From positions 1 through 64,000 of the forward strand of contig LGRX02035263.1 of the NCBI GenBank assembly GCA_001247695.2: DNA of 64,000 nucleotides, read 5' to 3'. The notes under the pieces were generated by a model. It had not been told where the DNA came from. It was given only the letters and a program-made list of their open reading frames with translations, and made no database searches. This document shows positions 2,594-60,286 of the stretch, piece after piece. This stretch comes from Cymbomonas tetramitiformis (Eukaryota > Chlorophyta > Pyramimonadophyceae > Pyramimonadales > Pyramimonadaceae). Made by a program: the position numbers and the translations under genes. Each line of letters starts with the position of its first letter. Position 1 is the first letter of the stretch.

Positions 2594-5524
2594 TCAGCTG
2601 GTGTGTGGGATGAGGCTGCCTCCTGACCGCACATCAGAAAGTGCAGCGTCAAACAGGACGGAGACCTGCTCAGCAGTGGTGCGGTTGGTCAGCTGCTGTG
2701 AAGGGAGGGGAATGCACGTGGGGGTCCGTGGAGGCTGGCCGGGAGGGCTCTTGATCCACACATTGTGATGGGGTCCTGCAACATAAGCCGGCCCTGGTGC
2801 AAGGCATGCGCATGGAATACATACATAACCCTGAGTGCGCGGAGCTCGGGCGGCGGCGTGGATGTCGTCCCCCGCAGTGGCCAAGACGTATGGGCAGTCC
2901 TTGAAACGCGCCGTGGTGTAGTCAACATGCCAGAGGAGTTGCGTTTTGGCAGTGAGCCCGCTTTTGAGCACATGCAGGAAGCTGAGGTTGTGACCGTACA
3001 GGCAGCGCTTTAAGGACATCTTCAAGTGCTCGCAGCCAAGCTGCCGGCGGTATTCAGTGAAGTCGTCAACCAAAGTACTGAAGCGGTCCATGTCCTTGGA
3101 GCCCGAGAGCCAGAACTCCGTGCGATGAAACCCGGCCGGCATGGCAAATGTGGGGGTCACATCCATGCTGGCGCAGGCGTATGACTCCGCGATGCCCACC
3201 TGGCTAACCGGATGCAATTTGGCAGAGCCGGGGAGAGCGGCCACTGGGGCGAGTTCGGCAACATGTGTGCCGGTGATTACGGTGCCTGCGCTCAGCGGTG
3301 CCGTGGACAGCAGCCAGTCACGCCGAAACCAAGTGTCAAAACGGAGGAGGAGTGCGTGGGTGAAGATTCGCTTGCGCTGCTGCTCGTATTTGATTTTGAG
3401 GCGGACGACGCGGCGGATGGAGGTGAACATCATGATGTGTTTGTTGATCCAGGGGTCCTTGTGGAACCCTTGCTCACTGGAGTACTCGCTGAGCGCTGGC
3501 CGATACAGCTGCTCGAGCTTGTGTTTGAAGTGGGTATCCCAGGTGTGGACGAACACGTCAGTGCACATTTGTTCGCGTTCCAAGTTTGGCTGGATAATGT
3601 GGCGCTGGATACTCTCCCAGGAGACACGTGGCGCATGCAGGTCGCTCGCGGCGCGGCCCGCCGTGTTCACCATGTTGCCCACTTTGCCGAAGAAGAGGAG
3701 CGCAAGGCGAGAGGAGCACTTCTCCGAGTCGGGTGCAGGCATCCCCTCTTCCGAGCCGCCCTCTGGCGCAGCTTCTCTCTCAACCTTAGGGGTGGGATCA
3801 GTGGTTGATGGCTGTTGCGCTCCGAGAAGCGCCAGATTGTCCCTATCCTTGCGTTCCAAGTGCCCCACCGTGGTTGCTTTGTTGTGGAAAGCAAACACAT
3901 AGGGCAGGACATAGGCGCTCGTACCACGGTCGACCAGCAAATCTCTCTCACCCCCCATATTCTTCAGCGCGGGATTGAAGAGCTGATCGGCATTGCTATC
4001 GAATTCGCCCTTCCGGTCCGCGCGAGGTCCGATCATGTCCGCGTCCACTCCGAGGATGTACCCGAGAATCCAGGGTGCCCTGCGTGCCACTGGGCTTCCC
4101 CCGCCGCCCTGCACCTGAATGTCACTGTTCTCACGCCTCTTCAGCCAGCGGCTGATCTCCTCCAAGCTTTCCGGCAGCCTCTTCACCAGGTCCCTTCCAC
4201 TGCCGCGTTTAGCAAAGTGTGGGTGAAGCTCCTCCAGGATCTGATGCTTCAGGTGTCGAGCTGAGATGGTTCCGATGCCCGCTGTTGTTGTAAGGGGCCC
4301 CACCTGAAGCGTCCCACAGAAAGACAGCCCCGAGGCGAAGCCATTCTACCCGGTCATTACGCCAAGGATATTCCCACTGTCCACAAGGTCTTTACGAACT
4401 GTTTAGGGTTTGCGCAGTATTAAATGCTTCCCCTTTCGACACTAAACCTTAGACAGCTTCCAGGGTTAAATCTATTTTCCCACAGCAGGTCTACACGAGC
4501 ACTGACTGACTCCGCGAGGAGAGACAACTGTGCCAGGGGAAAATTGGAAGCTTTGCAAACCTAACAAGTCCTCGCCTCAGACTACCCACGTTTGTCGTTG
4601 CACAAGCTATCACAGCGTGATACATAAGAGGGCTAAGGAAATCGGGTGGCGTCTTACCGCCGCAGGCTCGTGCGTGCGTGCGAGAAACTGGCTCATTGCC
4701 ACATAGCTCCCTTGGGACATGAGGACATCGTTGTTTGAAATCACAACTGCCCCAAACCGTCTTCGAGGCAGATCTTCCCGCGCAACGTAGCGCAGCGGAG
4801 ACCCGGGCTTAGATGAGAGTTCATCGGCTTGCAGCCGCTGAAGAGTTTGTTGAAGATCTCCTGGGTCGGTTGGAAGGCTCTGCCAATCCAGCTGGTGCGC
4901 AAACTTGAAATACGCCCAGGCTGTGTTCCAGCTCAAGGTGAGCCCTTTGGACTCTCGCGTTTGCCCAATCACTCGCAGCCCCAAAGCGCGCGCCTTCTGG
5001 GGAGTCCCATCATCGCTGCAGTCATCAATCACGAGGATTTCAATAGGATCTTGAAGGTCACGAAGGTTCCGTATCATTCGTTGTGTGATTTCCCAGTGAT
5101 TACGCGTGGTGATAGCAACCAGAGTCGGCTCATGGCCTTGAAACCCGGCCGGTGGAGAGCCCTGCCGCTGAGATCGAGTCGGCGTCGGCAAACTGCTGTG
5201 TCGGGTGTTGCGACCTTCGTTCTGCGGCTGAAAAGGTCTCTCGTCGGCGATACCAGGCAAAGCGTCTGAGCTACTATTGCCTGTGTGCGGTAGCATCGCG
5301 TGCGGGTGGTGCTCGTCGCCAACAGACACATTGGAGCTTTTTGAAGCGGAAGACGCGTACTTTAAAGTCAAGCGAAAGTGTTCACCCTTCTTGAAAGTAT
5401 GTGAAAAATAACCATACTTTGGAGGGATGAGATGATATATCCATAATACAAACACGCCGCAACCAACAAAACCAATCAGAAGAAAGAGTAGTGGGCCTGT
5501 ACGGACTCCTGCAGGCCGACCCAT
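2594..5524 (-). CDS. type II membrane glycosyltransferase, GT2 domain plus second GT-like domain
   Basis: Two exons on the minus strand, 5524-4658 and 4303-2594, give about 858 aa. The intron (4657-4304) has a GTAAGA donor and a CAG acceptor, phase 0. ATG at 5524 is chosen because a basic start (MGRPAGVRTG) leads straight into one hydrophobic segment (about residues 10-35, LLFLLIGFVGCGVFVLWIY), a signal anchor for a Golgi/ER type II protein. GT2 features follow: LVAITTRNHWE, an EILVIDDCSDDGT nucleotide-sugar/metal motif, and SNNDVLM. The splice joins EPAA to VGPLTTTAG, reproducing the usual GT2 'vvGPlT' block, and exon 2 continues with ILGYILGVDADMIG and NMGGERDLL...R. The C-terminal half (from about VSWESIQRHI) has DVFVHTWDTHFKHKLEQLY and HALLLRFDTWF, resembling another family of sugar-transferase-like proteins. 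Sugar and acceptor are unknown. Confidence 0.75.
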
Positions 5525-7945
5525 TCTTACAAGTCGTAGAGCCTCGCCAGTCGACAAAGAAACGTCCCCATCGGCGACGTCAACAGCGTCTATGCTGACG
5601 ACAATACCGTGATATTTTTTTTCGCTTTGATTTTCAAATAAGAAAAGGAAATCGAAAACCTTTGGAAGTAGCTGGCAGATTCAGGAGAGTTGGGCACCGC
5701 ATTGACACAGCACGTGTGGCCACTAACGCAAGGGCACCCGGAGTCGATGCCGACCGAAGCCATTCTGTGTGCCGTTGAAGGTCACCAACACATGCAACCT
5801 ATACCTGTGCACGTTGACCACATTCGTCTTGTCAATAGTCTCGATTCTAAGAAACTGCGCCTCGGTCTTGTCTTGCTGGTTAAGGTTTATGCGAAATACT
5901 TACTACAGTAAGATGTAAGTACTTGTAGTTGTATGGCGAACTCGAAACTGCAACATAATTAAGGGGTCCGTGAAACCGTGAAAAAAAAGAGTTGGCTTCC
6001 TATCCGTTTTCACGCGAAGGACGCTCGACGCGACGCGACGGTCCACGCGACGGTGCGGTGATCGGCTGAAACTTGATTCTTCCTGCCAGAAACGCCAGAA
6101 ACGATTTCCAAGCGCAGCATCCGATAAAATTGTACACGTCACACACACAGGCAACCAGGTTTTTTTTTGCCTCAAAAACTCCTGGTAACTCAACCTTACC
6201 TTCGCTTGGATCTTTGTGAGGATTGCCCAAACTGCGGTGCAGATCGAGATGCCACGCGATGGGGATGAGCTCGCACATTGGCATGTGATATCAATAGAGA
6301 GTTTCACGCAAAATTCGGCAGCCAATTCTTTCGCTAGGCCGACGTGGACGTAAAATATCCATCTTGTTGCAAAAGTCCGATGTTACTGGTGAAGTCTGCG
6401 AGCGCCAATTTTGGTTGGGTCTGAATCGAATATTCATGCTGTACAGTCAGCCGAGCGAATTGAGTCGCTGCCGAATTGAGTTCTCATTTCGTTCGAATTT
6501 GGCCTCGATCGAGCGAATTCAAGCGAATTCTCACGAGCGAATTGAGCAAATCGGCAGCCGATCCGACGTGGACCGACGTGTCCCCGAAAAATGCGGCATC
6601 TCCTGACGTCGGACTAGCGAAAGAATTGGCTGCCGAAATTTGCGTGAAAGTCACTAATATCTTCGACGGAAGAGCACGTCCTGTCGTACGTCTGTCGCAA
6701 GCCTCGGCTGTCGTCTGCTGTTTGTGTTGTGTGGGAGGAGAAATTTCAGTTGTGAACTCTTGAAATCTGAAGTCATTCTCGAAGTTGAGTATCGTGAACA
6801 GCCGACGCGAGGCTTCTTTTGAACGGATACCATCATAGCTGACGTCTCAGTCTGCTATCGAACTCCTCCAACTGCAAAGCTTGTCCCCAGACATCTGCAC
6901 ACACATCTTCCGTGCGACGAGGACAGTGATACGGCGTAATCGGAAGTGATACTCCAAGAAAAAAACTTTTAACGCCCAAACATGATCCAAAATCACGGGC
7001 AAGGTAGGTCGTTTTCCCCCTTAACTTGGATACTTCCCCCTTCCGCTTACGTCACAACACGGACGCACTGTGGGCACGTCTGCGCGGGCGCATGACCGTT
7101 CAAAACCTTTCCGCCACTCAGCGCCAGAACCAGATACAACAGTCGAAGAAGAATGCGACAGCCGTTGATAAAGGCACCTCTACTCGCAGAAAAGTGAGGC
7201 AGCTCTGCGCCAAGACGCCGCAAAGGATCGCAAGGAAACCAGACGACGGAGGACACCTAGTCGCAATATCTTGAGACATCAGTGGTCAAAGGGGCCTCCT
7301 TTAGATATTGCCTGCAGTGGACAGTCGCAGAAGAGATCGAGAAGGAAGATTTGTTGCGCTCCTAGTTGCAAATGTTTGAGACCGCAGTGGGTAGAGGCGC
7401 CTCTAATCGCAGCAGATAGAGACAGTGAGTAGAGGCGTTTCCAAATGCAGAATATTGAGGTAACCGTAGAGAAGCCTTCAGGTGCAGAAAAATTAGGGTA
7501 CAGTGGGCATAGGCGCCTTCTACAGTAAAAAGTTTTAGACAGCAGTGGGCATAGGCGCCACTCGTCGTAGAAGATTGCGACAGCAGTGCGCGGAGGCGCT
7601 TCGAGTCGCAGAGGAACGACCCAGCAGTGGGCAGACGCGCCTTCATTCGCAGAGGCGTGAGAAGTGAATGCTGCGCATATTCTGCATACACATGACTCGA
7701 GCAAGCATCTTTTTTTTTAAACAAGTGAGTGGGGAAACAGAATTCCTTAGGCATCCTGTCCCTAAATATCGATTTCAGCTACCCCCCATAACTTCTGAAA
7801 CAGCTGCGAGTTCAGCATTCGAGTACAGCTATACCCGGGACCACTGGAAAACGACCCAAAATTTTGGATTAAAGCTACGTCCACAGCGAGGGAAACCTGT
7901 GCATGTGATGCCGATCTCTTGTGGCCCCGTGCGCGCGGAAGTTTG
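5525..7945. other. intergenic; degenerate tandem repeats at about 7280-7660
   Basis: Space between the minus-strand glycosyltransferase gene and the plus-strand PPR gene, so both promoters should lie here, but no core element stands out. From about 7280 to 7660 there are five or six degenerate copies of a 60-75 bp unit containing GCAGTGGGCAKAGGCGCC. The long minus-strand open frames there come from the repeat and show no domain. Confidence 0.55.
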
Positions 7946-45520: not shown

Positions 45521-45645
45521 AATATGTTGTAAATCTTCTCATGCCGTGGCAATAGTTCCGCATATTTTCGGTGGTCCAACATTCTTAATTTTGGGTATTC
45601 GGTGTCTTTGATATACAGGCAATTGAAGATTGGTGACTCCGCCTG

Positions 45646-46581
45646 ATGGGAATCCGGAGCGTCATTGCAACTTTAGCCATTATGATCAACAAACGGCTCA
45701 TACGGGCCTTATTATGTTTGATGGTGTACTCCGCCGTGAATCCTACTTCTCATGATGCGATCTTCGACGATAGCATCGCTCCCATGGGGTACGTGGTCCC
45801 CATCACGAGAACACCTTCCTCCACGACGCCCGCACAGGTGGCACTCACCACGACGGCCGGTGTTGGGCAGCAAAGGATACCGAACGCGTCGTGGAGGCGC
45901 GAGCACTTGCAACGGACTCGTAAAAACCGTATTCTCGCGTCCCGTGAACGACAACGTGCACGGTTGATGGGACGCGCCCGTCTTGCACAAAGAACTCGTC
46001 AACAGGCTGTGGCTATGGACATCGACCATGATATGTCCGCCATCATTCCTCCCTCCGCCGATGCGGCCGTGGCGACTACGGGTGTGCGCGAGGCACCGAT
46101 ACTCCGAGCTGACCATGCCCCTGTCCAAGCACCGCCTTCCGCCCCTGAGGTCGACGATCCACTACCTTGCACCCAACTTGCTCGGCAGGCCGTGGCCATG
46201 CTCCTCGACAAGGGTTTGTTACCTACAGCCGCCACCGTTCCTCCCTCCGCCGATGCGGCCGTGGCGACTACGGGTGTGCGCGAGGCACCGATACTCCGAG
46301 CCGACCATGCCCCTGTCCAAGCACCGCCTTCCGCCCCTGAGGTCGACGATCCACTACCTTGCACCCAGCTTGCTCAGCAGGCCGTGGCCATGCTCCTCGA
46401 CAAGGGTTTGTTACCTACAGCCGCCACCGGTCCTCCCTCCGCCGATGCGGCCGTGGCGACTACGGGTGTGCGCGAGGCACCGATACTCCGAGCCGACCAT
46501 GCCCCGGTCCAAGCACCGCCTTCCGCCCGTGAGGTCGACGATCCACTACCTTGTACCCAACTTGCTCAGCAGGCCGTGGCC
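45646..46581 (+). pseudogene. N-terminal part of Ulp1-protease gene, split by hAT insertion
   Basis: ATG at 45646. A basic segment (RTRKNRILASRERQRARLMG) precedes nearly identical 64-aa (192-bp) repeats, each with PPSADAAVATTGVREAPILR, QAPPSAPEVDDPLP and QAVAMLLDKGLLPTAAT. The third repeat is cut at 46581 by the hAT element and resumes at 57916 in the same phase: 936 bp, or 312 codons, precede the join, and the next codon is the ATG of MLLDKG. The repeats are Pro/Ala-rich and probably disordered. The true start could lie further upstream. Confidence 0.7.
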
Positions 46582-46599
46582 CAGGGCTCTTCATGAATA
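46582..46599 (+). repeat. left terminal inverted repeat of hAT element
   Basis: CAGGGCTCTTCATGAATA, preceded by the 8-bp duplication CCGTGGCC. Confidence 0.9.
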
Positions 46600-46604
46600 G
46601 GATT

Positions 46605-46770
46605 AGTAATCATGATTTTTGATTTGATTAGGCCTTATTTCCTATTAATCAAGTCATGATTTGGACCCCTACCGTACTAATCAAGTCATGATTTGGACCC
46701 TTTCCTATGAATCAAGTCATGATTTCGTCGCGAGCCTATAAATCATGACTTGATTCGAAACGTGATTACT
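46605..46770 (+). repeat. subterminal repeats of hAT left end
   Basis: Several copies of ATCAAGTCATGATTTGGACC and inverted forms, typical of subterminal transposase-binding repeats. The block starting AGTAATCATGATTTTTGATT recurs at 49470. Confidence 0.65.
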
Positions 46771-46945
46771 ATGCACGATTTTCCCGCGCCACCCGACGGA
46801 CTGACGCAGTTCCAGTTCTAGCCATCTATTCGTTGCGTCAGGTCTGTTCGACAGCCCACAATTTTCACTCCCCCGCAAAGCCGTTTTTCAGCTTCCGGCA
46901 ACACCACTGGTTCGTTCATTCAGCAGACCTCCTCATACCGACAAT

Positions 46946-49209
46946 ATGGGCCGACGGAAGAAAGAGCTCTCATCGAAGCAGCAAACACTTGCCGTCCAAC
47001 AGTTTCCGGTGTTGAAGAAACCCCTAGATCATATTGGAAAGCAAATAAAGGTCCCCGGCTCGTTTTGGACCCTAGCGTCAGGAAAGATGTCAGAAGACGA
47101 GAGCAACACCTTTTTCTTGTGTACTATCCGCGAGTTTTCGGTTGCGCATAAGAGCCCAGGAGAAGCGACACTTTCGCAGGCATTTCAATTACAAGAGATG
47201 GGCCCGACTGGTACGGGCAGCCTAGAGCTAGGAGATGCAAGCGGCGAGATTTTCTGGATGAAGTATCCCATGCCTTTTCTAGAATTGTTTTACGACACCT
47301 TTCCTTTGTCTGACGATCAGCAGAGTTCTCAAGCGCCTCAGCCTTTAGCTATTTCAGCAGACCAATCCAATAATCGTACCCCTCATCATCCCGACTTTCC
47401 GAAGCTTGCGTTCCCTGTCGCTGAAGTTTACAAATATTTCGCTGTCACTTCAGATACCCTATGTGAGATGGGGCCAAAGGTAGGACACTATGCTGCAGAG
47501 TTTGAGTGTACTATCGTTCACAATAATGACGGCAGAACGTGTGGGACAAAGCGCAAACTGTATCACAAGGCCGGTAAGGCAGTGAGCACCAGCAATCTCG
47601 TAACGCATATCCGAGAGAAGGCAAGCAAGTGCGATAGCCATAAGTCAGCTCTTTCAAACATCGATAAGAACAATAGTAAATATGCCGAGGTTGATGGCGA
47701 GCAGGTTTATAGTTTAAGGTATATAACTTCTCTGAATCCTTTGAGCATCATGTGGACCTGTTGTGGTTGCGTACAAAAGGCCTCTCTTTCAACATGACTA
47801 CTCAGACCGAGTTTAGGGACTACGTACGTGGATACGATCCGCGTGCTGCCTTCCCGCATTCCGAGACGCTTCGTCGGATTGCGGTGTGTGTCCAGCAACT
47901 GCAAAAGGAAGAACGTGTTGCTAGGACTGCTCGCCACATCAAGAAGTTTAAGGGCGGACAGTGCGTCGGGATCCAGCTTGATATGTGGACCGACACTGCA
48001 ACGCATACTGCGTATGCCGCTGTCACACAAACCACTTGCGAAGATTCAGAGGACGAGAATAGTGACAGTGCCGAACTTTTCCTGCGTAGTGAGGTAATGG
48101 AATTCGGTGTTTTCCCAATGAGTGCAAAGTCAGGGCCCAACATCCGAGTTTGGTTCGTAAAAGTGTTGAAGGACAATGGGATCCCTTACGATGCGGTTAG
48201 CGGAGTGACCCCAGATGGTGCTGCAGATGGTCAGTGTGCGCTCAGTCAGATTGAAGAAATATCGGAGAAGGTAGATACGTGCCTTTTGCACCAGTTGCAA
48301 CGTGGAGTTTTGTACAGCGTTGGGCTGGCTGGAGTGAAGTCGAAGAACCCGGAGTGCAAGTCTTTGCTTAGAAAGCACAATAGAGTTGTCATGCTCTCGC
48401 GCCAATCTCTCGCCTATGGTAAAGCTCTCAATATTGTACAGACCAAAGCTGGGGTACCAAGTCAGAGCATTTTGAACTTGGAGGTGACTGCAACCACACG
48501 ATGGGGGAATCAATTCAAGCAGATCAATAAAAATAACCTGTTGCGGCAAGCGATTGATGCAGAGTTACACGCGTACAAACAAGCAAACCGCAATAATTTA
48601 GATGCGATCGTGGAAACGAATGAGTCAGAAGAGGGCAGTAAGGTTGGCACACCAGTTGCTGCGGCAGACATCAGACTGCACTTGATTGATTGGGACAACT
48701 CCGAGGAACTTGAGAGTTTCTTGTCTTACCCTTTTGAGATTAAAGAAACCTTGGAGCACAGTGGTATTTGCACAGGAAGTCAAGCAATGATTTTGCTGCA
48801 CGACTTAAAGGAAGGCTTTTGTGACCCTGGTGCACATCTTGACGTGAAGGAATTCCCACTCAGCTTGAAGCTCATTCACCGTGAACGTGTCGTCAGCATC
48901 AGAGACGCTGAGGACTTGAGTTCAATCGTGACCACTGCGCGCAATGTCTTGAGTGATGAGCTTGAAAGTCGTATATTTGCTCTTCGTCCATCCAACTCAC
49001 GACTAATTCAGTGTTACATGACCAAACAGTTGGACAGTAAGACTTTTTTGTCACCTGCCCAACATGAGCTAGCTCGAACTCTGTACTTGGGTGCTATGCG
49101 GGCTGCAGCATCCATTCAAGATGAGACCAAAACGTATGCAAAGTTTCGGCCGGAAAGACCTCGTGTAAAAATGAGAAATACTCCGGAGTCACGCGTCACG
49201 CGAATGTGA
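46946..49209 (+). pseudogene. hAT transposase with BED zinc finger, frameshifted and truncated
   Basis: ATG at 46946. A BED-type finger spans about 47505-47645 (CTIVHNNDGRTCGTKRK, then TSNLVTHIREKASKCDSHK). Near 47716 the frame shifts by one base. The second frame continues NFSESFEHHVDLLWLRTKGL and SFNMTTQTEFRDYVRGYDPR, then the RNase H-like core (QLDMWTDTATHTAYAAVT; GVTPDGAADGQCALSQIEE; VDTCLLHQLQRGVLYSVG). It ends HELARTLYLGAMRAA followed by repeat-derived residues. The C-terminal dimerisation (hATC) domain is absent, replaced by a ~60-bp tandem repeat, so this copy is very unlikely to be active. Confidence 0.8.
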
Positions 49210-49330
49210 TAGGGGAGATGATAAATATTCCGGAGATGAGAAATACTCCGGAGTCACGCGTCACACGAATGTGATAGTGGCGATGAGAAATATTCCGGAG
49301 ATGAGAAGCCTCCCACGTGCTTGCGCCTAT
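49155..49330. repeat. ~60-bp tandem repeat replacing the hATC end
   Basis: Copies of GAGAAATACTCCGGAGTCAC and GAATGTGATAG, starting inside the last codons of the transposase frame. Confidence 0.75.
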
Positions 49331-49469
49331 CGCGGGAAATGAATGCAATGTGAATTGAACTTAAAACGTTCACCGCATATTGAGTGTAAATTACCCCTCG
49401 GATTTTAATTGATTGATTGATTGATTGATTATAATCGAAAATTCGAAGTATGGGTACTAATCACACTAG

Positions 49470-49662
49470 TAATCATGATTTTTGATTTGATTAGGCCTTA
49501 TTTCCTAAAAATCAAGTCATGATTTGGACCAACCCCGTACTAATCAAGTCATGAGTTGGACGATCGCGGTACTAGTCAAGTCATGATTCGGACCTTCGCC
49601 GTACTAATCAAATTATGATTTAAACACACTATTCGATGAAAATGATATTATCATATGTCATT
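49470..49662 (+). repeat. internal copy of hAT end sequences
   Basis: The first part repeats the left subterminal region (AGTAATCATGATTTTTGATT..., compare 46605) in direct orientation. The last part (AAACACACTATTCGATGAAA ATGATATT) is the inverted counterpart of 57820-57860 near the right end. The segment reads like the left end, minus its TIR, of an element whose right end is 57907. Confidence 0.65.
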
Positions 49663-49895
49663 TTTGGATTTATATATATTTCAAAAAAATCAGGGTTTAG
49701 TGATATTTATGCGCGAAATAGGGATACATAAAGGCAACACGGTAGAAAAGTGCAGTATGCGTACAATGAAAACGCCGAAATATGCATACATGTATCATTC
49801 TTTATTCAAATGTTTACGAGTAGAGTACTTTTCACCCTATACCGTCGAGGCATGACTGATACTATCAGTCAGGGCGGTCGACAAATCCTACTATT
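49663..49895. other. 3' flank of the methyltransferase gene
   Basis: AT-rich, no feature beyond the short intergenic spacer. Confidence 0.4.
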
Positions 49896-52800
49896 TTATT
49901 CATCATTCTCATCTTCCTCATCTGCATCATTCTCTTCTTCCTCAGATTCGGCAGTGGCCGCTTCCTTGCCCTTCGCCGTCGGTTCGCTCTTCTGTTTTGG
50001 CTTCGTCTCGGCGTCCTGATCGGGCTCGTTGTCGAAATTGATCAGCCGTTGCTGCGCAGAGCTGACCATGAACTGGTCGTGGTCGAAGCCGATCGCGTTC
50101 ATACCACACCTCATGGCGGCCATGGACGTCGAGCCGACGCCGCAGCAAGCGTCGAGAATCCAGTTGAGTGGATGGCCGTTCTCATCCATCTTGCCCGGAT
50201 TGTCACCGAGCATGTGGCACTGGATCAGCTCCATCAACAGAGCTTGGGGTTTCTGATGGTTATTCACGGCTTTGTTGTCGCGTTTGAACATCTGGTGCAC
50301 AACCGGGAAGCCGCGCAAAAGTGACGCGCGGCTCACACGTTCACCTTCTCCAGTATCAAAGTTGAACATCCACTCCGGCTTTTTAGTAGACTCCCCCTGG
50401 GCATCGCTCTTTACATGGTACCCCAGGACGCCACATTCAACGTCATTGTAGCGCACGGTCCTGTTGGGGTTCATGTTCACGTTCTGCTTGTGCCAGAAGA
50501 ACCGCTCCGCGCGGCCGGAGCAGTAATTGTCAATCACCTCCAGGAAATCGCTTTGTTGGACGAAACCGCAAAAGATAGCGATAGTCCATGCCGGGGCGGT
50601 GGTCTTGGCGTTGAAAGACTCCAGGAACGGTTGCACCTCCTCCTTGGTCATCGCGTCGGGAGTCTTCTCCTTGTCAAGGGCGTAATTGCAGTCGATGATC
50701 GTCCCCGTGAAGGGCAGCCTCGGGACGTCCTTCATATCGCTCATGCTGCCCTTGACGATCTTCCAACGAGGGAACATCGGCACGTTCGTCTCATGTGTGG
50801 GCTCGTCCTCCTCAAGGCCTGCCTCTCCTGGAACCTTAAGCTCCGGCCCCTCGGTCCGCGCCTCCCGATAGAGTTTGATGTCGACTTTCACCTCGACCTG
50901 TTGCAAGCCTAGGATGTGCCCCGCGCGTGGCGCCTGCGCTTCTTGGAGATTCGCCCGCGCGTTCTCGACGTAATTCAAGATCGCGTGCGGAACTTCCCCA
51001 GACCCCCCCGGCGCGCTCCCCCCTGAGTTGAAGGTAAGCAGCCGATCAACGACTCGATTTTCTCTTGGGAGCTCCAGTAGGGGGTGAACTCGGCCTTGAA
51101 TGCGTCCCAGGTTTGCAATCCCGCCGCGGACACCAAGTGCTTCTGCACCATGCGTTCCTTCTTGAACTGGCTTATCATCAGGCCCCCCTCTTTTACTGAC
51201 AACTCCTTGTTGAATAATCAGGCGCAGATACGTGTCCACCTTGTCGAACTCCGCCTCCCCCGCCAAGCCGCCCAAGTTAATCCAGAACGTCATACCCATG
51301 GATTTGGCATTGTGGAGAAACTGAGCTTCTTCCACCAAAATGCCTGCCCCTTTAGACGAGCCCGCTCCGTGGTCCCCGCCTCCTCGTTGCACCTCGTCTT
51401 CCATCTGCAAGTAAAAAAAACATTTTTAGAATGTCTTAAAATATAGAAAAGGATGCTTTGGGGGGGTAAACACTGTTTGAAGCAAAAGTAAAAAGTAATT
51501 TACCTGTCGGTTGGAGGTGCCTTTTTTGCCAGCTTTCTTGGCGGGTCCCTTAGCGGGCGAAGATGAGGCCTTGCGCTTTTTGGTCTTCGAAGCCAAAGGG
51601 TTTTTCATGCCCTTCAGGTCAAACCTTCTGTAAGCCTCCATGATCTTAACGCAGAGGTCCCACGTCTGCGGCCGGAAATTGGCAATTGTCCAGTGCATGA
51701 AGTAGTGGTTGATTTGCACGCCGCCGAACACAGAATGCTTGGACATCGCTACTTCCTTCACATGCGTCTCCATCGACTGGTTCAAGTGAGACATTACGGG
51801 GTACCAACTTGTGACCCGATCGAGGTGAGCGTTGATGTCATCCTCCAGCGTCTTCACCGTCACGTCTGCCTCAGGGAGGGTCTCAAGGTCTCCCTCGCGC
51901 TCAGACGTCTCCACATCCTCGATGTACTGGAATCCCTTGGGATATTTCTCGATATCCGGGACTGCAAATCCATGCTCTGATTCGAACTCCGCCATTTTTT
52001 GCACCAGCCCTCCGACCTCGTAATACCCAGGTTGATAAGAGGTACCCTCTTCGGTGTCCTCGGGGACACCGGCGACGAACTCGGAGATCAACGCATCTCG
52101 GTAAACCTTGTACACGACCCCATTCTTTTCGAAAAGGGTCGAACGAAGCCCTTGCATGAACTGAGTGTGGTCTTTGCCTTTCGTCTTCTGGTCGATTTGG
52201 TTCTGCATCTCGCCTAAGAACCGAATCATGTCAGGCGTGAGACCGATGTAGATCTTGCTCTCGAAGAACTGGAAAGCTATCTCCAACGGGATTTCCTCGT
52301 GACACTCGTCGGTGGCTTGATAACAGTGCTGGTGCCCAAAAACCTTGCCTCTGTATTTTCCCGCGAGAGCTTTTTTTATGGAGAATTCGGCACGGGTTTT
52401 GACATCGTCGATCGCAACAAGACCCGCATTGAAAGGGGCCCACGGGTTCTCCTTCCTGCTGTTCTTGATCTCGTTCACCCAGCCCCTCTCTTGATCCCGG
52501 CAGGCCTCGTACCCCGTCGCGTGGTACAGGCATCCAATGGGGAGACGAAACACACTCCCTTGCTCCGCCGCCTCGTCGGTCGACATCGGGTTCGGCCACC
52601 GGTGCTCCATCTCGATTTGCCTGCACAGCTTTGCTTTCTCCTCAAAATCCATCTTTGCTGCATGCTCCACTGTTAGCTTAGCGTGCCACCCATGTGCAGC
52701 CACCTCGGCTGCCTTCCTTGCCTCAGATGGGGTGGCCACTTGAGACATATCCACATTGGCGCCCGCTCCAGTAAAAGCTCTGGAGCCACTAGGTCCTTGA

Positions 52801-53947
52801 AGGGCGCGTTCGGCAGCACGCTGCACATCCGTTCTCCTGGCAGCCTGGGACAAGACGAAACTGTTCATTAGCTAATGAAAGCCTTCCGCCCCGGTCAGGG
52901 CTCAGGGCGCGCGGTTCGAGGCGGAAGGCGTTCATTAGCTAATGAACGCCTTCCGCCCCGGTCAGGGCTCAGGGCGCGCGGTTCGAGGCGGAAGGCGTTC
53001 ATTAGCTAATGAACGCTTTCCGCCCCGGTCCAGGCGCAGGGCGCGCGTTTCGGGGCCGAAAGCGTTCATTAGCTAATGAACACTTTCCGCCCCGGTCCAG
53101 GCGCAGGGCGCGCGTTTCGGGGCCGAAAGCGTTCATTAGCTAATGAACGCTTTCCGCCCCGGTCAGGGCTCAGGGCGCGCGTTTCGAGGCCGAAAGCGTT
53201 CATTAGCTAATGAACGCTTTCCGCCCCGGTCAGGGCTCAGGGCGCGCGTTTCGGGGCCGAAAGCGTTCATTAGCTAATGAACGCTTTCCGCCCCAGTTTA
53301 GGCTCAGGGCGCGCGTTTCGAGGCCGAAAGCGTTCATTAGCTAATGAACGCTTTCCGCCCCAGTCCAGGCGCAGGGCATGAAAGGGACGTACCGAAGCCT
53401 CTACAAATGGTACCTCGCCAGCAAGTCCGAGGTCATCGATCACTGCCGCTGGTCTCCTGCTTTGCCAGAAAGGAGCTGTAATCGACGCTTTCCACGCCTG
53501 GTTTACATAGCTCGCTAGATAGAATTCTTTGCTTTTATTTTCGTCTGCTGCTCTAGTTTTCAAACTTTGAAAAGCCAAAAGCCGATTTGTGTGCTTTGGA
53601 AGGCTCAAGGCTTCCTCAAAGTTTGCGCTGTCTAATTCGATCACAGTAAGCTTTCTGTTTCTGTACGCGACGAAATACAGAATTGGAGTCTCGTTCTCAA
53701 TGATACTGTACGCTACGCGTTTCTCAGGAACGAGGCTACCCCCGGTTACAGTCGAAGAAGTAAATTTAGGAAAACTAAAAATTATTTCTTCATTTTGCTC
53801 GGAAGGGTCCTCAGAGTGAATCAGTAATTGCAGACTGTCCGAAGGATCGTCGGCTTCAAGGGTTCTAACAATGCTCCACTTGTTACCAAGATAGAGCTGG
53901 AAAATATGTTGAGCCCTCAGTGCTTGAAATGTTTCGAGTGTCGCCAT
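49896..53947 (-). CDS. large protein with C-terminal beta-class DNA methyltransferase domain
   Basis: Three exons on the minus strand: 53947-53393 (185 aa), 52844-51504 (447 aa), 51404-49896 (502 aa plus stop), total 1134 aa. Introns are phase 0 with GTACGT/CCCAG and GTAAAT/TTGCAG ends. Exon 3 has motif order IV-X-I: DCNYAL in the motif IV position (50682-50693), NNHQKPQALLMELIQ as motif X (about 50224-50272), and DACCGVGSTSMAAM as the AdoMet-binding motif I (about 50133-50160). That order marks the beta class of N6-adenine/N4-cytosine enzymes. The usual (D/N/S)PP(Y/F) catalytic motif reads DCNY, so activity is uncertain. The middle part (WVNEIKNSRKENPW, then GKVFGHQHCYQATDE) is reminiscent of a ParB-like domain; this is a weak call. 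A Lys-rich linker (KKRKASSSPAKGPAKKAGKK) precedes intron 2, and the acidic C-terminus ends EEENDADEEDENDE. Confidence 0.7.
52863..53350. repeat. 67-bp tandem array built on an 18-bp palindrome (methyltransferase intron 1)
   Basis: Eight copies of GTTCATTAGCTAATGAAC at exact 67-bp steps (52863, 52930, 52997, 53064, 53131, 53198, 53265, 53332), one slightly altered. In several copies the palindrome extends on both sides (GGCGGAAGGC...GCCTTCCGCC, 38 bp in all). The array lies wholly inside the intron 53392-52845. Confidence 0.95.
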
Positions 53948-54271
53948 TGCGAAATGAGAGAAATTGGCTGTCAACTGTGAAAGGGGTGTGTGTGAAAGAA
54001 CTTTGAAAAAGTGATGTAACTTTAGCACAATAATAAAAGTCATTTCTGGCGGCTAAAAATGACATGTCGAATATCGATGTCAATTTTAATCAAAAATGAC
54101 ATGCGCTGTCGCTTTTTGATTCGGTCTGTTCAGATCAAGGATATGATTTTAAGATATCCTGGTGTCATTTGCGCTGAAATCGAGGATCGATCGATTCAGT
54201 AAGATAGAAATTCTTGGTTGACTCGCAAGTCTATATCATTTTTAGAACGTAAAAAACGGCTTCATAAGCTA
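53948..54271. promoter_or_regulatory. divergent intergenic region, presumed bidirectional promoter
   Basis: 324 bp between the methyltransferase ATG (53947, minus) and the first DUF7869 ATG (54272, plus). It is AT-rich. Short inverted similarities (AAAATGACATG/TGTCATTT) occur at about 54055-54170. Promoter function is inferred from position only. Confidence 0.45.
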
Positions 54272-57200
54272 ATGACGGCTAATTTTGACGAAAATATGTT
54301 TTCTATTCCTTTCGATGAAGGTTGCGAGATTATCTGCAAACCGTGCCCGGGAATAGTTATTGAAGATTCCATGGAAATAGGGGCTGACTTTTTCAATCAT
54401 GAGCCAATTCCAAGCACAGCCCCAAGCGCGAATACGCAATTGGTTCTTTGGAACGCGCCTTTGACGTGTAGATCGGAAGTTAGCTCTAATTCTTCACGCG
54501 TTTCCGGGTCACGCGCTTTGCGCGAAATTGACTTACAAGAGATAAAAAGCAGACTTGATACAGAATTTTCAGAGACAAGTTTGGACTTGAGGAATGAAGA
54601 CCCTCTTGTTTGTTTAAATGGTGAAGTAAACAAGCAGATTGTCGTGCGCAAACCGTACGAATCCGACATACGCAAGAAACAATATACGGGCGTAATTAGT
54701 ATTAAGCAGCGACGTTTGCAGGCTGACAGTATATCAATGGCAGAAACAATTAAGTGCAATTGCAAGTCGCACTGCTGTCTATCTTTCTCATCCGCAGATA
54801 TTCAGTCTTTTCGCGAAAATATTTTCAGTATGTCGCAAAAAGATAGAAAGGAATACTTCATCAAAGACTTGCTAAAAAACAGCTTTCGATCTGAGGACAA
54901 GTTCGACTTCAAATACTTTTTGGGCAAGAAGCAGGTATGTTTTTTTTTGAACTCGTTCATTAGCTAATGAACGGCCTCTGGCCAAAGCGCGACTCACAAT
55001 TAGACACTTTGGCTACGGGAACCGTTCATTAGCTAATGAACGGCCTCTGGCCAAAGCGCGACTCACAATTAGACACTTTGGCTACGGGAACCGTTCATTA
55101 GCTAATGAACGGCCTCTGGCCAAAGCGAAATTTTTCTTGGACCTTGTGATAGATTGTGTAATGTCATCACAGGAATGTGGAATATTGTATCATAAATTTC
55201 TAAATAAATTTCTTAAAGTACATTCGCGACGCGTTGGTCGAGTTGGTACGGCGCTAGGCTATGAACCTCGCACTCGTGGGTTCGATTCCCACTGAGGGTC
55301 TAGGTTGCGCAGATTTAAGGCGTGGTTTGGAGAGTGCTGACGAGCATGCGACGGCCGTCCCGCCTGCAGACGTGCAGTGTTGGGGGTGTCTCCCAAGCGT
55401 CTTAAATTGGCATGACCTACCAAAACCCTTATGCATTTTCTAGATAATGTGTTATTAATTTTTGAGTGACGGTTTTTTTTGTAACAGGTGTGCTTTAAGT
55501 TCTACTATATGGCTTACGGCATCAGCTACGGGTATCTTCACGACTGTCGGACACGCGTGCTCGAGGGCCGACACACGTTTGTTCATGGATTGACGTATTT
55601 GACAAAATATTTGACGAAGATTGCAGGAAGTGGCTCAAGATTCCATCGACGAACCGATTTTCTCAGTGCGATGTTTGCGCGTCCTTCAAGTTATTGAAGG
55701 AAGGCTTAACCAAATCTCAAAAAGGTGAATATTCATGAATAGCTTTGTGATGTGTTTATATGCTTATGTAATTTGTTCACTGACCCAAATTTGTGTATCT
55801 TGCACAGCGCAATACAACGGGCCTCTCAACAAACATCATGCAATCGCACGAGCGGAGCGCCAGAAGTTCTACAAACATGGTCGTAAAGCGAATATGACCA
55901 AGAGCATTACCATGAACAAAACTTGGCATAAGTATGCCTCGGTGATCATCGATGGCATGACGCAGTGGACCACCCGACTGCCACACTTTCGACGTATCCC
56001 TAAACATCTGGACTCTAAGGACTTCCTTGACGTGCACAACATGGGGAGCATGATCGAGAACGTGGGCCGCTTTATGGATTTCAACTACGCCAACTTCAAG
56101 GACGATGCGAACTTCCTTGTCAACGTTTTGCACCGGGATATCCTCCGCATTCAAGAGCATCGACGCAACGGGGACGGGGAAAATTCATACCCGATGCCGG
56201 AAGTATTGTATGTACAGCTTGACAATGTGAGCACCAACAAGAGCAAGTTGATGTTGGCATACGCAGCTTGGCTGGTGCACACGGACGTCTTTCGCAAGGT
56301 GAAACTCAACTTTCTGTTGGTGGGACATACGCACGAGAACATTGACCAGATGTTTTCACGCTTCTCCGTGCGTCTACGACGCAAGCAAGCTTGGACGCTC
56401 GACGAGATGATAGAGGTCGCACAAGAATGCTTTACGGATGGTGTAACGTGCGAGCACACCGAGAAGATCTTCGACTTCAGCTCTTGGTTTGATGGTCACG
56501 TCTTCGATTGCCACAATATTTTGGCACAGCAGGCTTTCAAGTTCAAGAAGAACGAGCACGGCGAAGTGGGCATGCAGTACAAACAGTATTCCATTTCACC
56601 CAAATGGTTACCCGAGACTCCATTGCCAAAGCTTGTTTCTACACCCCCTGTCACGGGGCCTGGATACATCAAGCCGATTCCTTTTACCGAAGAAGGCATC
56701 GAAAAGCTTGAGCATACCTTACAGGCGTTGAAGGACATTTTGGGCACAAAGCTGACGGAGGTGCACGAAAAGTTTTGGCGCGAGGATGTCATCGAGAAAC
56801 AGCGCCACCTAACTGCTGGTGGAGAATGTCAAGCGCCCGCGATACCCTTCCAGCATCCCGAGAAAATCGCCATCGAGCGCAATACCACCTTGGTTCGACT
56901 GATAGAGGCGCCCGCGTTGGCGATAGAAGCTGCCGAGGCTGCCGCCGTCCCCGCTATACCGGTGCGCATCCAACGCCGAATTGATCGAGCGCCGATAGAA
57001 GTGTACAACGGTAAACGGAAACACCAAGGTCGAGCCCAAAAGCGAGCAGAGCAGTACGTGGACAACGCCCAGTGGGAGGTCACCTACGGCCAGATGACAG
57101 TCGGCAGCTTTGCAGTGGCTCTCGCGGTGGAATCTGAAAACGACAAGTTCGCGTTCCGCGTACAACTGAAGCGAAGCGAATGGTCGGATCCGTTGTACTT

Positions 57201-57588
57201 GGTGAAGGTGGAGGCGCGCTATCCGTCAACTCAACAGCTGCTATATCGCTATTTCCAACCCAAAAAGCACACCGACACCAAGAAGAAGCACCTCGGCAAG
57301 CAGCTTGCGAGTCACCCAGGAGCTTTCGCAGCGCCACCGGGGCACCGACCGTCTACCGAGACTTTCGATAAGAATGAAATAGTGCTGGCATGGAATGTGG
57401 ATGCGAATGACCCCGAACGGAGTATACCGAACGAGCAATACGCGCAGATAGTCGTCGCTTTGCTTGCACAACAATCCAAACGCACGCGCAAGGACCTAGG
57501 TGACTTGAATGAATCGGATGATTCCGATGAAGACGAAGCTTTTGATAATTGCGTAGCGGTAGCGGTAGCACCTGAAGTGGACGCGTAA
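54272..57588 (+). CDS. DUF7869 protein, RNase H-like and transposase-like
   Basis: Exons 54272-54934, 55488-55724 and 55808-57588; introns GTATGT/AACAG (phase 0) and GTGAAT/CACAG (phase 1). The start is the first ATG (MTANFDENMF). Exon 1 ends with a Cys cluster (CNCKSHCC) and FLGKKQ, spliced to VCFKFYYMAYGIS. Exon 2 needs one extra base near 55588: the frame leaves ...RHTFVHG and resumes DVFDKIFDEDCRKWL and FSQCDVCASFK, and only a 1-nt loss makes the exon phases agree. Exon 3 holds the conserved core, with SVIIDGMTQ (here ASVIIDGMTQ, Asp at 55951), VLYVQLDNVSTNKS (Asp at 56221) and LLVGHTHENIDQMFSRFSV (about 56319). These acidic residues fit an RNase H/DDE-like fold. About 893 aa. The function of the family is unknown; transposase ancestry is inference. 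Confidence 0.75.
54955..55125. repeat. 69-bp tandem array with the same 18-bp palindrome (DUF7869 intron 1)
   Basis: Three copies of GTTCATTAGCTAATGAAC at 54955, 55024 and 55093. The spacer (GGCCTCTGGCCAAAGCGCG, then CACAATTAGACACTTTGGC) is unrelated to the spacer in the methyltransferase intron. Confidence 0.95.
55228..55300 (+). tRNA. tRNA-like sequence with A and B boxes, probably a SINE head or decayed tRNA
   Basis: A box TGGTCGAGTTGG at 55235-55246 and B box GGTTCGATTCC at 55279-55289. The D stem (GTCG/CGGC) and T stem (GTGGG/CCCAC) pair. The anticodon stem has one mismatch and the loop would read ATG. The acceptor arms (GACGCGT and TGAGGGT) do not pair, so it is unlikely to be a working tRNA. 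It lies in intron 1 of the DUF7869 gene, followed by about 140 bp that may be a SINE body. Confidence 0.4.
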
Positions 57589-57889
57589 AGCAAGACGAAA
57601 AAAAAACATGTAAATAATATGTGTATAACGTGTATATAGATTCTGAGTCAAAAGTTCTGTGTGTTTTCACTCCTCCTAGATTTCGAAAAGTGCATTTGAC
57701 CTCAATTTTGTACCATAAAAACCATTAAATCTAATGCACAACCTGCACTTGCATGTTCTTGACTGTTAAAATGCGGCTTTTTAAGCCTATCATGAGGTAA
57801 ATAAGGCAATATCATTTTCACATGAGAATATCATTTTCATCGAATAGTGTGTTTTTAAGCATTTTAAAACTAATCAAATCTAATCAAAG
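57589..57889. other. right subterminal region of hAT element
   Basis: AT-rich. It includes the inverted counterpart of the internal end sequence (ATATCATTTTCATCGAATAG TGTGTTTTTAA at about 57826-57858) and CTAATCAAATCTAATCAAAG next to the TIR. Confidence 0.5.
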
Positions 57890-57907
57890 TATTCATGAAG
57901 AGCCCTG
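57890..57907 (-). repeat. right terminal inverted repeat of hAT element
   Basis: TATTCATGAAGAGCCCTG, the exact complement of the left end, followed by CCGTGGCC. Confidence 0.9.
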
Positions 57908-60009
57908 CCGTGGCCATGCTCCTCGACAAGGGTTTATTACCTACAGCCGCCACCGGTCCTCCCTCCGCCGATGCGGCCGTGGCGACTACGGGTGTGCGCG
58001 AGGCACCGATACTCCGAGCTGACCATGCACCGGTCCAAGCACCGCCTTCCGCCCGTGAGGTCGACGATCCACTACCCACCACTCAACTTGCTCAGCAAGC
58101 CGTGACCATGCTTATCGACGAGGGTATCTTTCGCCCCTTTCAGGCGGCCGCCTCCGTCGCCTCTGGGCCCGCTCAGCCCGACCCCGCTGTTGTGCTGCGT
58201 CAACCTCCTCTCGCCGACTCTTTCTACCCCGATTATGGCGGAACACTTACGCAGATCGCGCAGCAAGCCGTGGCCATGCGCATCGAAGGCGGTTTCTTGC
58301 CGCCTCCGGCTGTCGACGCTGCTCCCAATTTTATGCAGGCGGCCGCCTCAGTCGCCCCCAGGCTTGGTCCGCCCGATCCCGTGGTTGTGTTACGTCAACC
58401 ACCTTTCGACATATCCCACCCCGATGCGGGCGGAACTCTTACGCAGTTCGCGCAGCAAGCCGTGGCGATGCGCACTGAAGGCGGCATATCTCCTCCTCCG
58501 GCGGTCGACGCTGCTCCCAACTCTCTCCAAGCGGCCGCCTCAGTCACCACCGGGCTAGCTCAACCTGACGCCGTTGCTGTGCTATGTCTCCCACCTCTCG
58601 ACATATCCCACCCCGATGATGGTGGAACACTCACGCAGATCGCGCGGCAAGCCGTGACCATGCGCATCGACGCCGGCGTATCGCCCCCTCCGGCCATCGC
58701 CGCGGAGCCCTTTATCTTTCAGGCGCCCGCCTCGGTTGCCACCCTCAGTACTCCACGTTCGCGCCGAAAGTCTTCGACTCCTATTCGACGTTCTTCTAAT
58801 TCGTCTGGATTGCAAACGACCACCCCACGTTCCGAACCCTTGTCCAAGACTTCCGCTCGGGTTGAGCCACTAAGTCCTCTACGACCGCTTACTTTATTCC
58901 AAGCTTTCAGGGGTGGGTGTGATACCACTCGATCTGCGCGTTTAACCACGACGGATATTCCTACGCCTACCCCACCGCCGATACCATCTCCGAGTACGGT
59001 TCCTTGCATCTCGTCGCCTGCGCATGCACCAAGCCCGATGGACCGTTTACTCCCCGGGCGAATGCTAAATGACGAAATTGTGGATTTGTATCTAGCAAGC
59101 GTACCTACGTCACGTCGAGAAGCAACGACATTCATCTGGCCAGGCCCCACGTATCCACTATTTCTCGGCTAGGTTTTATACGAAGTTAACGGAAGTATTC
59201 AACCCCGACCATCGGACGCACGCGGTGCAACTAGTGGGAGACACGTTCGTGGACATTACACCACCTGGTTCTCAGGAGCCCATGGCCATAGACCCACAAG
59301 CCGCCCCCGTGTACAGCCGCAATGTGCGCAGTTGGAATACCGAGCGCGCATTAGGGTATGGCATAACGTGTTGCGATATCTTCATGGTGCCTATCCACCA
59401 TCCCGGGGACCCGGGGCATTGGTCATTATTCGTGGTTGACGTTCCACGGAGCTGCATCACCAAGTACGATTCAATGTGCGACGTGCACCATCCCGAGGAT
59501 ATTTGCTTCATCAATCTAGAAACATTTATTCGTGAGGAATTCGCCGCACACAATTCTGCACGCCTCTCGGGTGTCACTTGGTGTAGGCAGACCGCTGTTG
59601 ATGCCCCTCAGCAACATAACACCATCGATTGCGGGGTCTATATGCTGCTCAACGCTACATTAATTTCTAAAGACGAACCTCTCAGCTATACCTTCGTTAA
59701 CATCGCCGCCGCCAGATCCACCATCTCCGAGCGCATCTTGAGGCACGGTGAACAGTTGTCGACTGAGCGACACTTGCGTATGAAAGGCCGAGGGCTGGCT
59801 GGAAAGCGTCGTAGCTCCCTTACTTCATCCTCACCATCGATTTATACCCCGAGAACCTTGCGGCGGAGCTCCAACACTCGTCGCCAACGAGCCCGTCGCT
59901 CCCAACCCGGGGTGATGGAAAGCGTGGCTCAAGGCCAACGAGACCGTCGCTCCCAACCCGGGGCGAAGGAAAGCGAGGCTCAAGGCAAACGAAACCGACG
60001 CTCCCAACC

Positions 60010-60286
60010 AGGGAAGGTATCTTCCTGGGATTGGCCGGCCCGGGGCCGTGTCACGGAGGCCCGGGCCGAAGGCGGGCCGAAGGAAAAGTTGCGGATGGGC
60101 CGAGTCGCATTGAGGGGAAAATCGATAAATTTCCAAAATTTTATCGATTTTTGACAAATTGTCATACTTAAAATTAAAAATTTGCGCCTGCGGCGGGCAA
60201 TTTTGGGTTCGGGCCGAGACGGGCCGGAATGTGGCCGAAGTGAATTCCCGATGCGGGCCGAGTCACCTCCGCGTAAGATATCTACC
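60010..60286 (-). mobile_element. Mutator-like MITE, copy 2
   Basis: The same element as 37785-38062 in reverse orientation, flanked by 11-bp CGCTCCCAACC on both sides (59999-60009 and 60287-60297). The target is itself part of a coding tandem repeat, so the duplication alone is ambiguous, but its length equals that of copy 1. Confidence 0.75.

Follow-up and report, generated by a model that had tools for sequence, protein, structure and literature searches.

Two nested transposons at one locus

The DNA analysed here (hereafter the window) comprises the first 64,000 nucleotides of contig LGRX02035263.1 of the prasinophyte alga Cymbomonas tetramitiformis. It contains an 11.3-kb insertion, at positions 46,582 to 57,907, which carries a gene for a protein with a DUF7869 domain and, in divergent orientation, a DNA methyltransferase (MTase) gene. 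A preliminary description, made from the sequence by itself, had presented the insertion as a hAT-type element with perfect 18-bp terminal inverted repeats (TIRs) and an 8-bp target-site duplication (TSD), and the gene pair as its cargo or as a second self-contained mobile module. The outer ends were exactly as described, but a second TIR pair with a 4-bp TSD, placed exactly around the two genes, had been missed: the insertion consists of two nested transposons, an 8,231-bp element within a hAT remnant of about 3.1 kb. The features that delimit them are the following.

46574..46581: outer 8-bp TSD CCGTGGCC, left copy
46582..46599, plus strand: outer hAT TIR, left, exact
46638..46757: hAT left subterminal repeats ATCAAGTCATGATTT, final copy inverted
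46946..49209, plus strand: hAT-type transposase remnant, frameshift at about 47720, C-terminal part missing
49467..49622: hAT right subterminal repeats, with the inner element inserted within them
49619..49622: inner 4-bp TSD TTTA, left copy
49623..49649, plus strand: inner TIR, left
57827..57853, minus strand: inner TIR, right
57854..57857: inner 4-bp TSD TTTA, right copy
57890..57907, minus strand: outer hAT TIR, right, exact
57908..57915: outer 8-bp TSD, right copy

The outer TIR, CAGGGCTCTTCATGAATA, is perfect over its 18 bp (chance expectation of 0.03 for a match with up to three mismatches allowed) and CCGTGGCC is present on both sides. Joining the host flanks over one TSD copy gives an open frame of 733 codons, the insertion site being in a coding tandem-repeat region. 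Once the inner element is removed, 3,091 bp remain, laid out like an ordinary hAT: a transposase remnant with repeats on either side of it and a TIR at each end. The two sets of subterminal repeats (46604-46698 on the left, 49467-49561 on the right) are 93% alike over 95 bp. Short hAT TIRs are of the CAGGG type, and the outer TIR begins with CAGGG. The transposase remnant is 97% identical to CYMTET_30770 and has 22 relatives (P0067-P0088), five of them Cymbomonas models; its hAT-like motifs were assigned by eye, Pfam giving no match for the truncated open reading frame (ORF) of the window and no family in P0068-P0070. Transposases of the hAT type are characterised by a dimerisation domain at the C-terminus. 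That the resident transposase is broken, as first described, was confirmed by the frameshift and by P0068, which extends beyond the truncation point. The likeness to hAT elements (8-bp TSD, CAGGG-type TIR, hAT-like remnant) is thus that of the outer element, and the inner pair is not hAT. The frame break near 47720 coincides with eight extra bases, GTTTATAG, relative to the P0067 reading (compared by eye), which might be an excision footprint.

The inner TIR, AACACACTATTCGATGAAAATGATATT, was revealed by a pairwise comparison between the stretch left of the MTase gene and the right end of the insertion: it starts with 5'-AACAC, is perfect over 27 bp (49623-49649 and 57827-57853) and 94% identical over 36 aligned columns. 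TTTA is found on both outer sides, as a 4-bp TSD; when eight end positions were combined with six TSD lengths, nothing else agreed apart from a trivial case of 2 bp. Because the DUF7869/MTase pair has its own 27-bp TIRs and 4-bp TSD, it is probably not hAT cargo. For a single 11.3-kb transposon, whose hAT transposase once moved both genes, one can invoke the perfect outer TIRs and 8-bp TSD that surround everything, as well as the fungal hAT7 elements, which carry TET/JBP as extra genes (PMC12730594). We nevertheless consider this scenario improbable: the inner ends sit exactly around the pair, and what is left after removal of the inner element is a hAT of normal size with repeats at both ends.

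Could the junctions be assembly artefacts? The long-read genome published for Cymbomonas, from which the window may derive, is a hybrid assembly in which interspersed repeats make up 68.3% (PMC10675990), and the breaks in the MTase frame could be sequencing indels. Two independent base-precise TIR and TSD signatures, together with an open host frame over the outer empty site, are unlike mis-joins, and make an artefact very improbable.

The DUF7869 gene

The coordinates of the exons of both genes of the inner element are given below.

54272..54934, plus strand: DUF7869 gene exon 1
55488..55725, plus strand: DUF7869 gene exon 2 (3' end approximate), with an internal deletion of about 69 codons and a frameshift
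55808..57588, plus strand: DUF7869 gene exon 3 (5' end approximate), RNase H-like domain with DDD triad
53393..53947, minus strand: MTase gene exon 1, start codon at 53947
51504..52844, minus strand: MTase gene exon 2
49896..51404, minus strand: MTase gene exon 3, beta-class MTase domain towards the C-terminal end

The spliced, divergent pair of the preliminary description was found again, the DUF7869 domain with an E-value of 2e-48, but neither gene is intact. Compared with P0001, exon 2 of the DUF7869 gene is short of about 69 residues and contains a frameshift, and about 70 MTase residues are out of frame (see below). All three genes of the window copy, the hAT transposase included, are therefore damaged, and relatives without those defects at those places exist in the databases. 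A mini-intron in exon 2 of the DUF7869 gene was considered and rejected, since P0001 and P0012 have some 69 more residues there.

The best protein match of the DUF7869 product was CYMTET_15056 of C. tetramitiformis (97% identity over 96% of the query); named relatives include proteins of Riccia, Chara and Adiantum. The predicted DUF7869 model is RNase H-like and, among solved structures, most closely matches integrases and mariner transposases, i.e. DDE enzymes. A DDD triad (D230/D320/D361 in P0001 numbering) is present in 49 of the 59 rows of an alignment from which two fused models, P0008 and P0051, were excluded. The protein thus looks like a transposase and not like unexplained RNase H-like cargo: judging from the predicted fold, DUF7869 is most likely the pair's own, cutting and joining its TIRs, and a previously unnamed domain likely gains a function. 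In the open-access literature, as covered by a limited library, DUF7869 was not mentioned. An oddity is P0008 (CYMTET_16163), a model in which a DUF659 (hAT-type) part is fused to the C-terminal half of DUF7869; it is a genuine fusion, or else the gene model wrongly joins parts of another nested copy.

The methyltransferase gene

With splice sites placed by eye, the minus-strand gene reads as the 1,134-aa protein announced in the preliminary description. A match to the beta-class MTase family PF01555 was obtained near the C-terminus (2e-5), although its 25.1 bits remain just under the cut-off of 26.7. About 70 residues of the reading (near 50985-51210) are out of frame versus P0061-P0064; the relative-like sequence is present in another frame (ORF 50975-51217). 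Among the relatives, P0062 matches phrog_67 at 3.9e-13, and part of P0066 hits phage methyltransferases, the lowest E among the best 20 of 345 records being 3e-6. In the alignments the motif order IV, KP, I is retained, with motif I and the KP motif well conserved. From these similarities, the predicted product has, at its C-terminal end, a beta-class amino-methyltransferase of phage or bacterial type.

The long N-terminal region has no convincing family match. A ParB-like domain was seen there by eye, with the palindromes described below as parS-like sites, but no match to it was found in families, PDB or phage proteins, and it is kept as a lead only. Fold prediction gave no usable model for the MTase (predicted local distance difference test score, pLDDT, of 35).

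The pair in a distant lineage

Contigs from 84,980 prokaryote species genomes were scanned with a DUF7869 profile. Nine of 464 candidate stretches were confirmed: eight (L005-L012) in one metagenome-assembled genome (MAG) and one, a fragment (L013), in a marine MAG. The former is titled 'uncultured Trichormus sp.', a genus that includes Trichormus azollae, strain 'Nostoc azollae' 0708, the name of the Azolla symbiont. Given that name, the intron-like splits of the MTase frame (splice sites putative) and the DUF7869 relatives in Riccia, Chara and Adiantum, the eight loci are probably host plant DNA, likely from a fern, co-binned with the cyanobacterial symbiont. We refer to them as the plant-bin loci. 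This public cyanobacterial MAG (Trichormus, ERR2144891) seems to hold several eukaryotic transposon contigs. The marine fragment (L013:7-621) lies at a contig end, in a MAG binned as Flavobacteriaceae, and is probably eukaryotic contamination as well.

In L006, L007, L009, L010 and L012, matches to Cymbomonas-type MTase proteins lie upstream of DUF7869 and on the other strand, so that a head-to-head MTase homologue is present in all five loci whose contigs extend far enough; in L005, L008 and L011, where the DUF7869 match starts 549-676 bases from the contig start, the pair cannot be judged. For L007, three ORFs were joined by eye to obtain the MTase domain, which gave 59.4 bits with PF01555 and matched CcrM at 1.1e-9 among solved structures, the nearest of which (CcrM, DpnA, MboIIA and RsrI) are mostly named adenine enzymes. 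Compared with six sequences, the L007 domain matched P0066 (2e-13) and the Cymbomonas proteins (4e-8 to 8e-7); both genes of the pair are therefore homologous between the two lineages.

TIRs similar to AACACGTTTGCGTGAAGAACAGG were found at both ends of L007 (391 to 8114), L009 (4642 to 12446) and L012 (177 to 6220), beginning with AACA as in the alga, and with inverted-pair complementarities of 79%, 81% and 94%, respectively. L005, L006 (where it starts with ACCAC), L008 and L010 have such a TIR at the right end; L011 and L013 have none that reaches the threshold (at least 24 of 34 bases). The L007 element, 7.7 kb long and with an 867-aa DUF7869 ORF retained, is flanked by AACA on both sides, a 4-bp duplication; the flanks of L009 and L012 show no duplication. 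A 4-bp TSD is thus seen in two of the four copies examined, with a chance probability of about 0.0003 (at 70% A+T and for a fixed end, uncorrected for the fact that the window's end position had been chosen).

These loci bear on the cargo scenario too: besides the pair's own AACA-starting ends, they contain no match to the 22 relatives of the window hAT (tblastn on L005-L013, E up to 1e-3, the same proteins matching the window) and no exact outer TIR. Of the two options left by the preliminary description, cargo or second self-contained module, the latter is favoured by the evidence, and the pair looks like a mobile unit of long standing that is complete in itself. Among viral contigs, one (L001) has the exact outer TIR but contains no relative, and another (L002) has a distant phage-type MTase; the other viral-contig scans with DUF7869 or MTase queries gave no relative.

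Purifying selection on both genes

Pairwise comparisons between plant-bin loci were made on exons taken as stop-to-stop frames. For three MTase exons (4, 5 and 3 loci) the nonsynonymous proportion was 0.03-0.23 versus 0.64-0.93 for the synonymous one, and for DUF7869 in the seven loci L005-L011, each with an open frame of at least 873 codons, 0.08-0.30 versus 0.44-0.84; synonymous sites were often saturated. L012 was omitted from the DUF7869 count (frame broken) and from the long MTase exon (frame shorter). We concluded that both genes are under purifying selection in the plant-bin lineage, and hence maintained.

Palindromes around the shared promoter

The window contains eleven exact copies and one degenerate copy of the palindrome TTCATTAGCTAATGAA, all inside the inner element.

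52864..53348: eight exact palindromes TTCATTAGCTAATGAA with 67-bp spacing, MTase intron 1
54261..54276: degenerate palindrome with two mismatches, overlapping the DUF7869 start codon
54956..55109: three exact palindromes TTCATTAGCTAATGAA with 69-bp spacing, DUF7869 intron 1

The two arrays have little in common except the palindrome. Across the eight plant-bin loci (L013 excluded), 58 copies of the half-site GTCGATG/CATCGAC were counted, and all but three of these (55) fall in the gap that precedes the DUF7869 gene; shuffled sequences would lead one to expect 0.3-1.5 per locus. L011 has no half-site but a related palindrome, and L012 none in the gap. In the alga as in the plant-bin lineage, palindromes are thus concentrated about the promoter that the two genes share; they may serve as an operator or a methylation target.

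Interpretation and possible mechanism

The reading that we favour, with a probability of about 0.8, is that of nested DNA transposons, the inner one having AACAC TIRs, a 4-bp TSD and, head-to-head, a DUF7869 gene (likely the transposase) and a beta-class MTase partner kept by selection. A few observations weigh against it. The first is that no copy has been seen to move, which would suit host genes caught by chance between repeats. This alternative is largely refuted and very improbable, since an unrelated bin has the pair in the same divergent arrangement and likewise with TIRs. The single-copy host genes at a fixed place that the preliminary description had named as the opposite outcome are countered by protein evidence alone: Cymbomonas has at least five distinct DUF7869 models (among 60 proteins returned) and at least four distinct MTase models (among 6), with CYMTET_38921/38922 forming one pair, adjacent by tag number (longest contig listed for both, 106,345 bp). 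The five Cymbomonas models related to the hAT transposase have no tag number adjoining those of the listed pair genes.

The others concern methylation. Beta-class amino-methyltransferases modify N6 of adenine or N4 of cytosine, and their catalytic motif IV has the form (D/N/S)-x-P-(Y/F/W). The plant-bin ORFs (DIPY, 5/5) conform to it and both annotated phage enzymes aligned have DLPY, versus DCNY in all four Cymbomonas proteins and DCVY in both metagenome relatives, which depart from it. In the PF01555 scan of algal-type MTases (the window piece, P0062, P0065 and P0066), P0062 (23.1 bits) and P0065 (21.8) were, like the window piece, below the cut-off. The algal protein may accordingly have lost catalysis and serve in DNA binding or as a transposition accessory, an explanation compatible with nested transposons and to which we give slightly less than an even chance. 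It is opposed by the good conservation of motif I and the KP motif, by the presence of D and Y in motif IV, and by the score of P0066, a metagenome relative with DCVY that exceeds the cut-off (31.9 bits). Because the copy in the window is damaged and DCNY is the motif of its lineage, methylation by the algal copy is unproven, and the earlier proposal that the transposon could mark or shield its copies in this way stays conjectural.

Within the nested-transposon reading, the DUF7869 protein would pair and cut the AACAC ends and insert the element with a 4-bp stagger. The MTase, expressed from the same promoter region in the opposite direction, would mark the element, most likely influencing expression or transposition, much as has been suggested for the TET/JBP genes of fungal transposons (PMC12730594); the altered algal motif leaves room for a non-catalytic role. 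It is tentatively, and at somewhat under even odds, that we suggest that the MTase acts on the DNA of its own element, most likely at or near the palindromes, as a self-regulatory or anti-silencing mark. A bolder and rather unlikely extension would be an undescribed plant and algal lineage of superfamily level, with an obligate head-to-head pair of DUF7869 DDD transposase and phage-derived adenine MTase. There, the promoter palindromes would be a methylation-sensitive switch by which an element, through its own mark, keeps count of its copies or decides when to jump, and the change of motif in the alga would be a subsequent step towards a methylation-independent or differently tuned version.

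Relation to known elements

Among known transposons, Sola elements have a DDD transposase, a 4-bp TSD, a size of mostly 2-9 kb and variable TIRs, and are present in moss (PMC10741241). The inner element resembles them by its DDD triad and its size (8.2 kb in the window, 7.7 kb in L007), and a 4-bp TSD is seen in two of its four copies, the other two showing none; the comparison is one of features, made without Sola sequences, and the part of PMC10741241 available mentions no MTase gene for Sola. The original description of Sola is reportedly that of Bao et al. in 2009.

A DNA-modifying enzyme beside a transposase is likewise found in the fungal TET/JBP transposons (KDZ, hAT7, IS3EU and others), but there it is a dioxygenase acting on methylated bases, whereas that of the inner element is a methyltransferase; DUF7869 is not mentioned in the accessible part of PMC12730594. 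Self-encoded DNA methyltransferases are also known from DIRS elements (Dam-like adenine MTase) and from LINE, DIRS and Gypsy elements with DNMTs (PMC5890265). Those are retrotransposons, unlike the TIR transposon described here, and the DIRS enzymes are Dam-like whereas CcrM, DpnA, MboIIA and RsrI are the nearest in our case. With the beta-class MTases of phages and bacteria (phrog_67, CcrM, RsrI) the inner-element gene shares sequence similarity and the order IV, KP, I; it differs in being spliced and eukaryotic, with a long N-terminal region and, in the alga, an altered motif IV. A search of the open-access literature on transposons with methyltransferases (titles and beginnings of abstracts in a limited library) returned the TET/JBP and DNMT cases and no DUF7869-methyltransferase element.

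Transposons with DNA-methylation enzymes were thus already known, from fungi (dioxygenases) and retroelements (methyltransferases). Here, a two-gene cut-and-paste element combines a bacterial-type MTase with the probable transposase both in a prasinophyte alga and in what is probably a fern, and purifying selection acts on the pair. So lasting a pairing suggests that self-methylation has an enduring part in transposition or in evading silencing, and makes it testable whether some algal and fern adenine methylation stems from mobile elements.

Other features of the window

The gene split by the outer hAT (45637-46581 and 57916-60151) consists of tandem coding repeats of about 192 bp. Directly downstream of it lies a Ulp1/C48 protease domain (PF02902, 2e-19), perhaps part of another mobile element. 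Elsewhere, at 4613-5680, an ORF with a glycosyltransferase family 2 domain (PF00535, 2e-9) was found.

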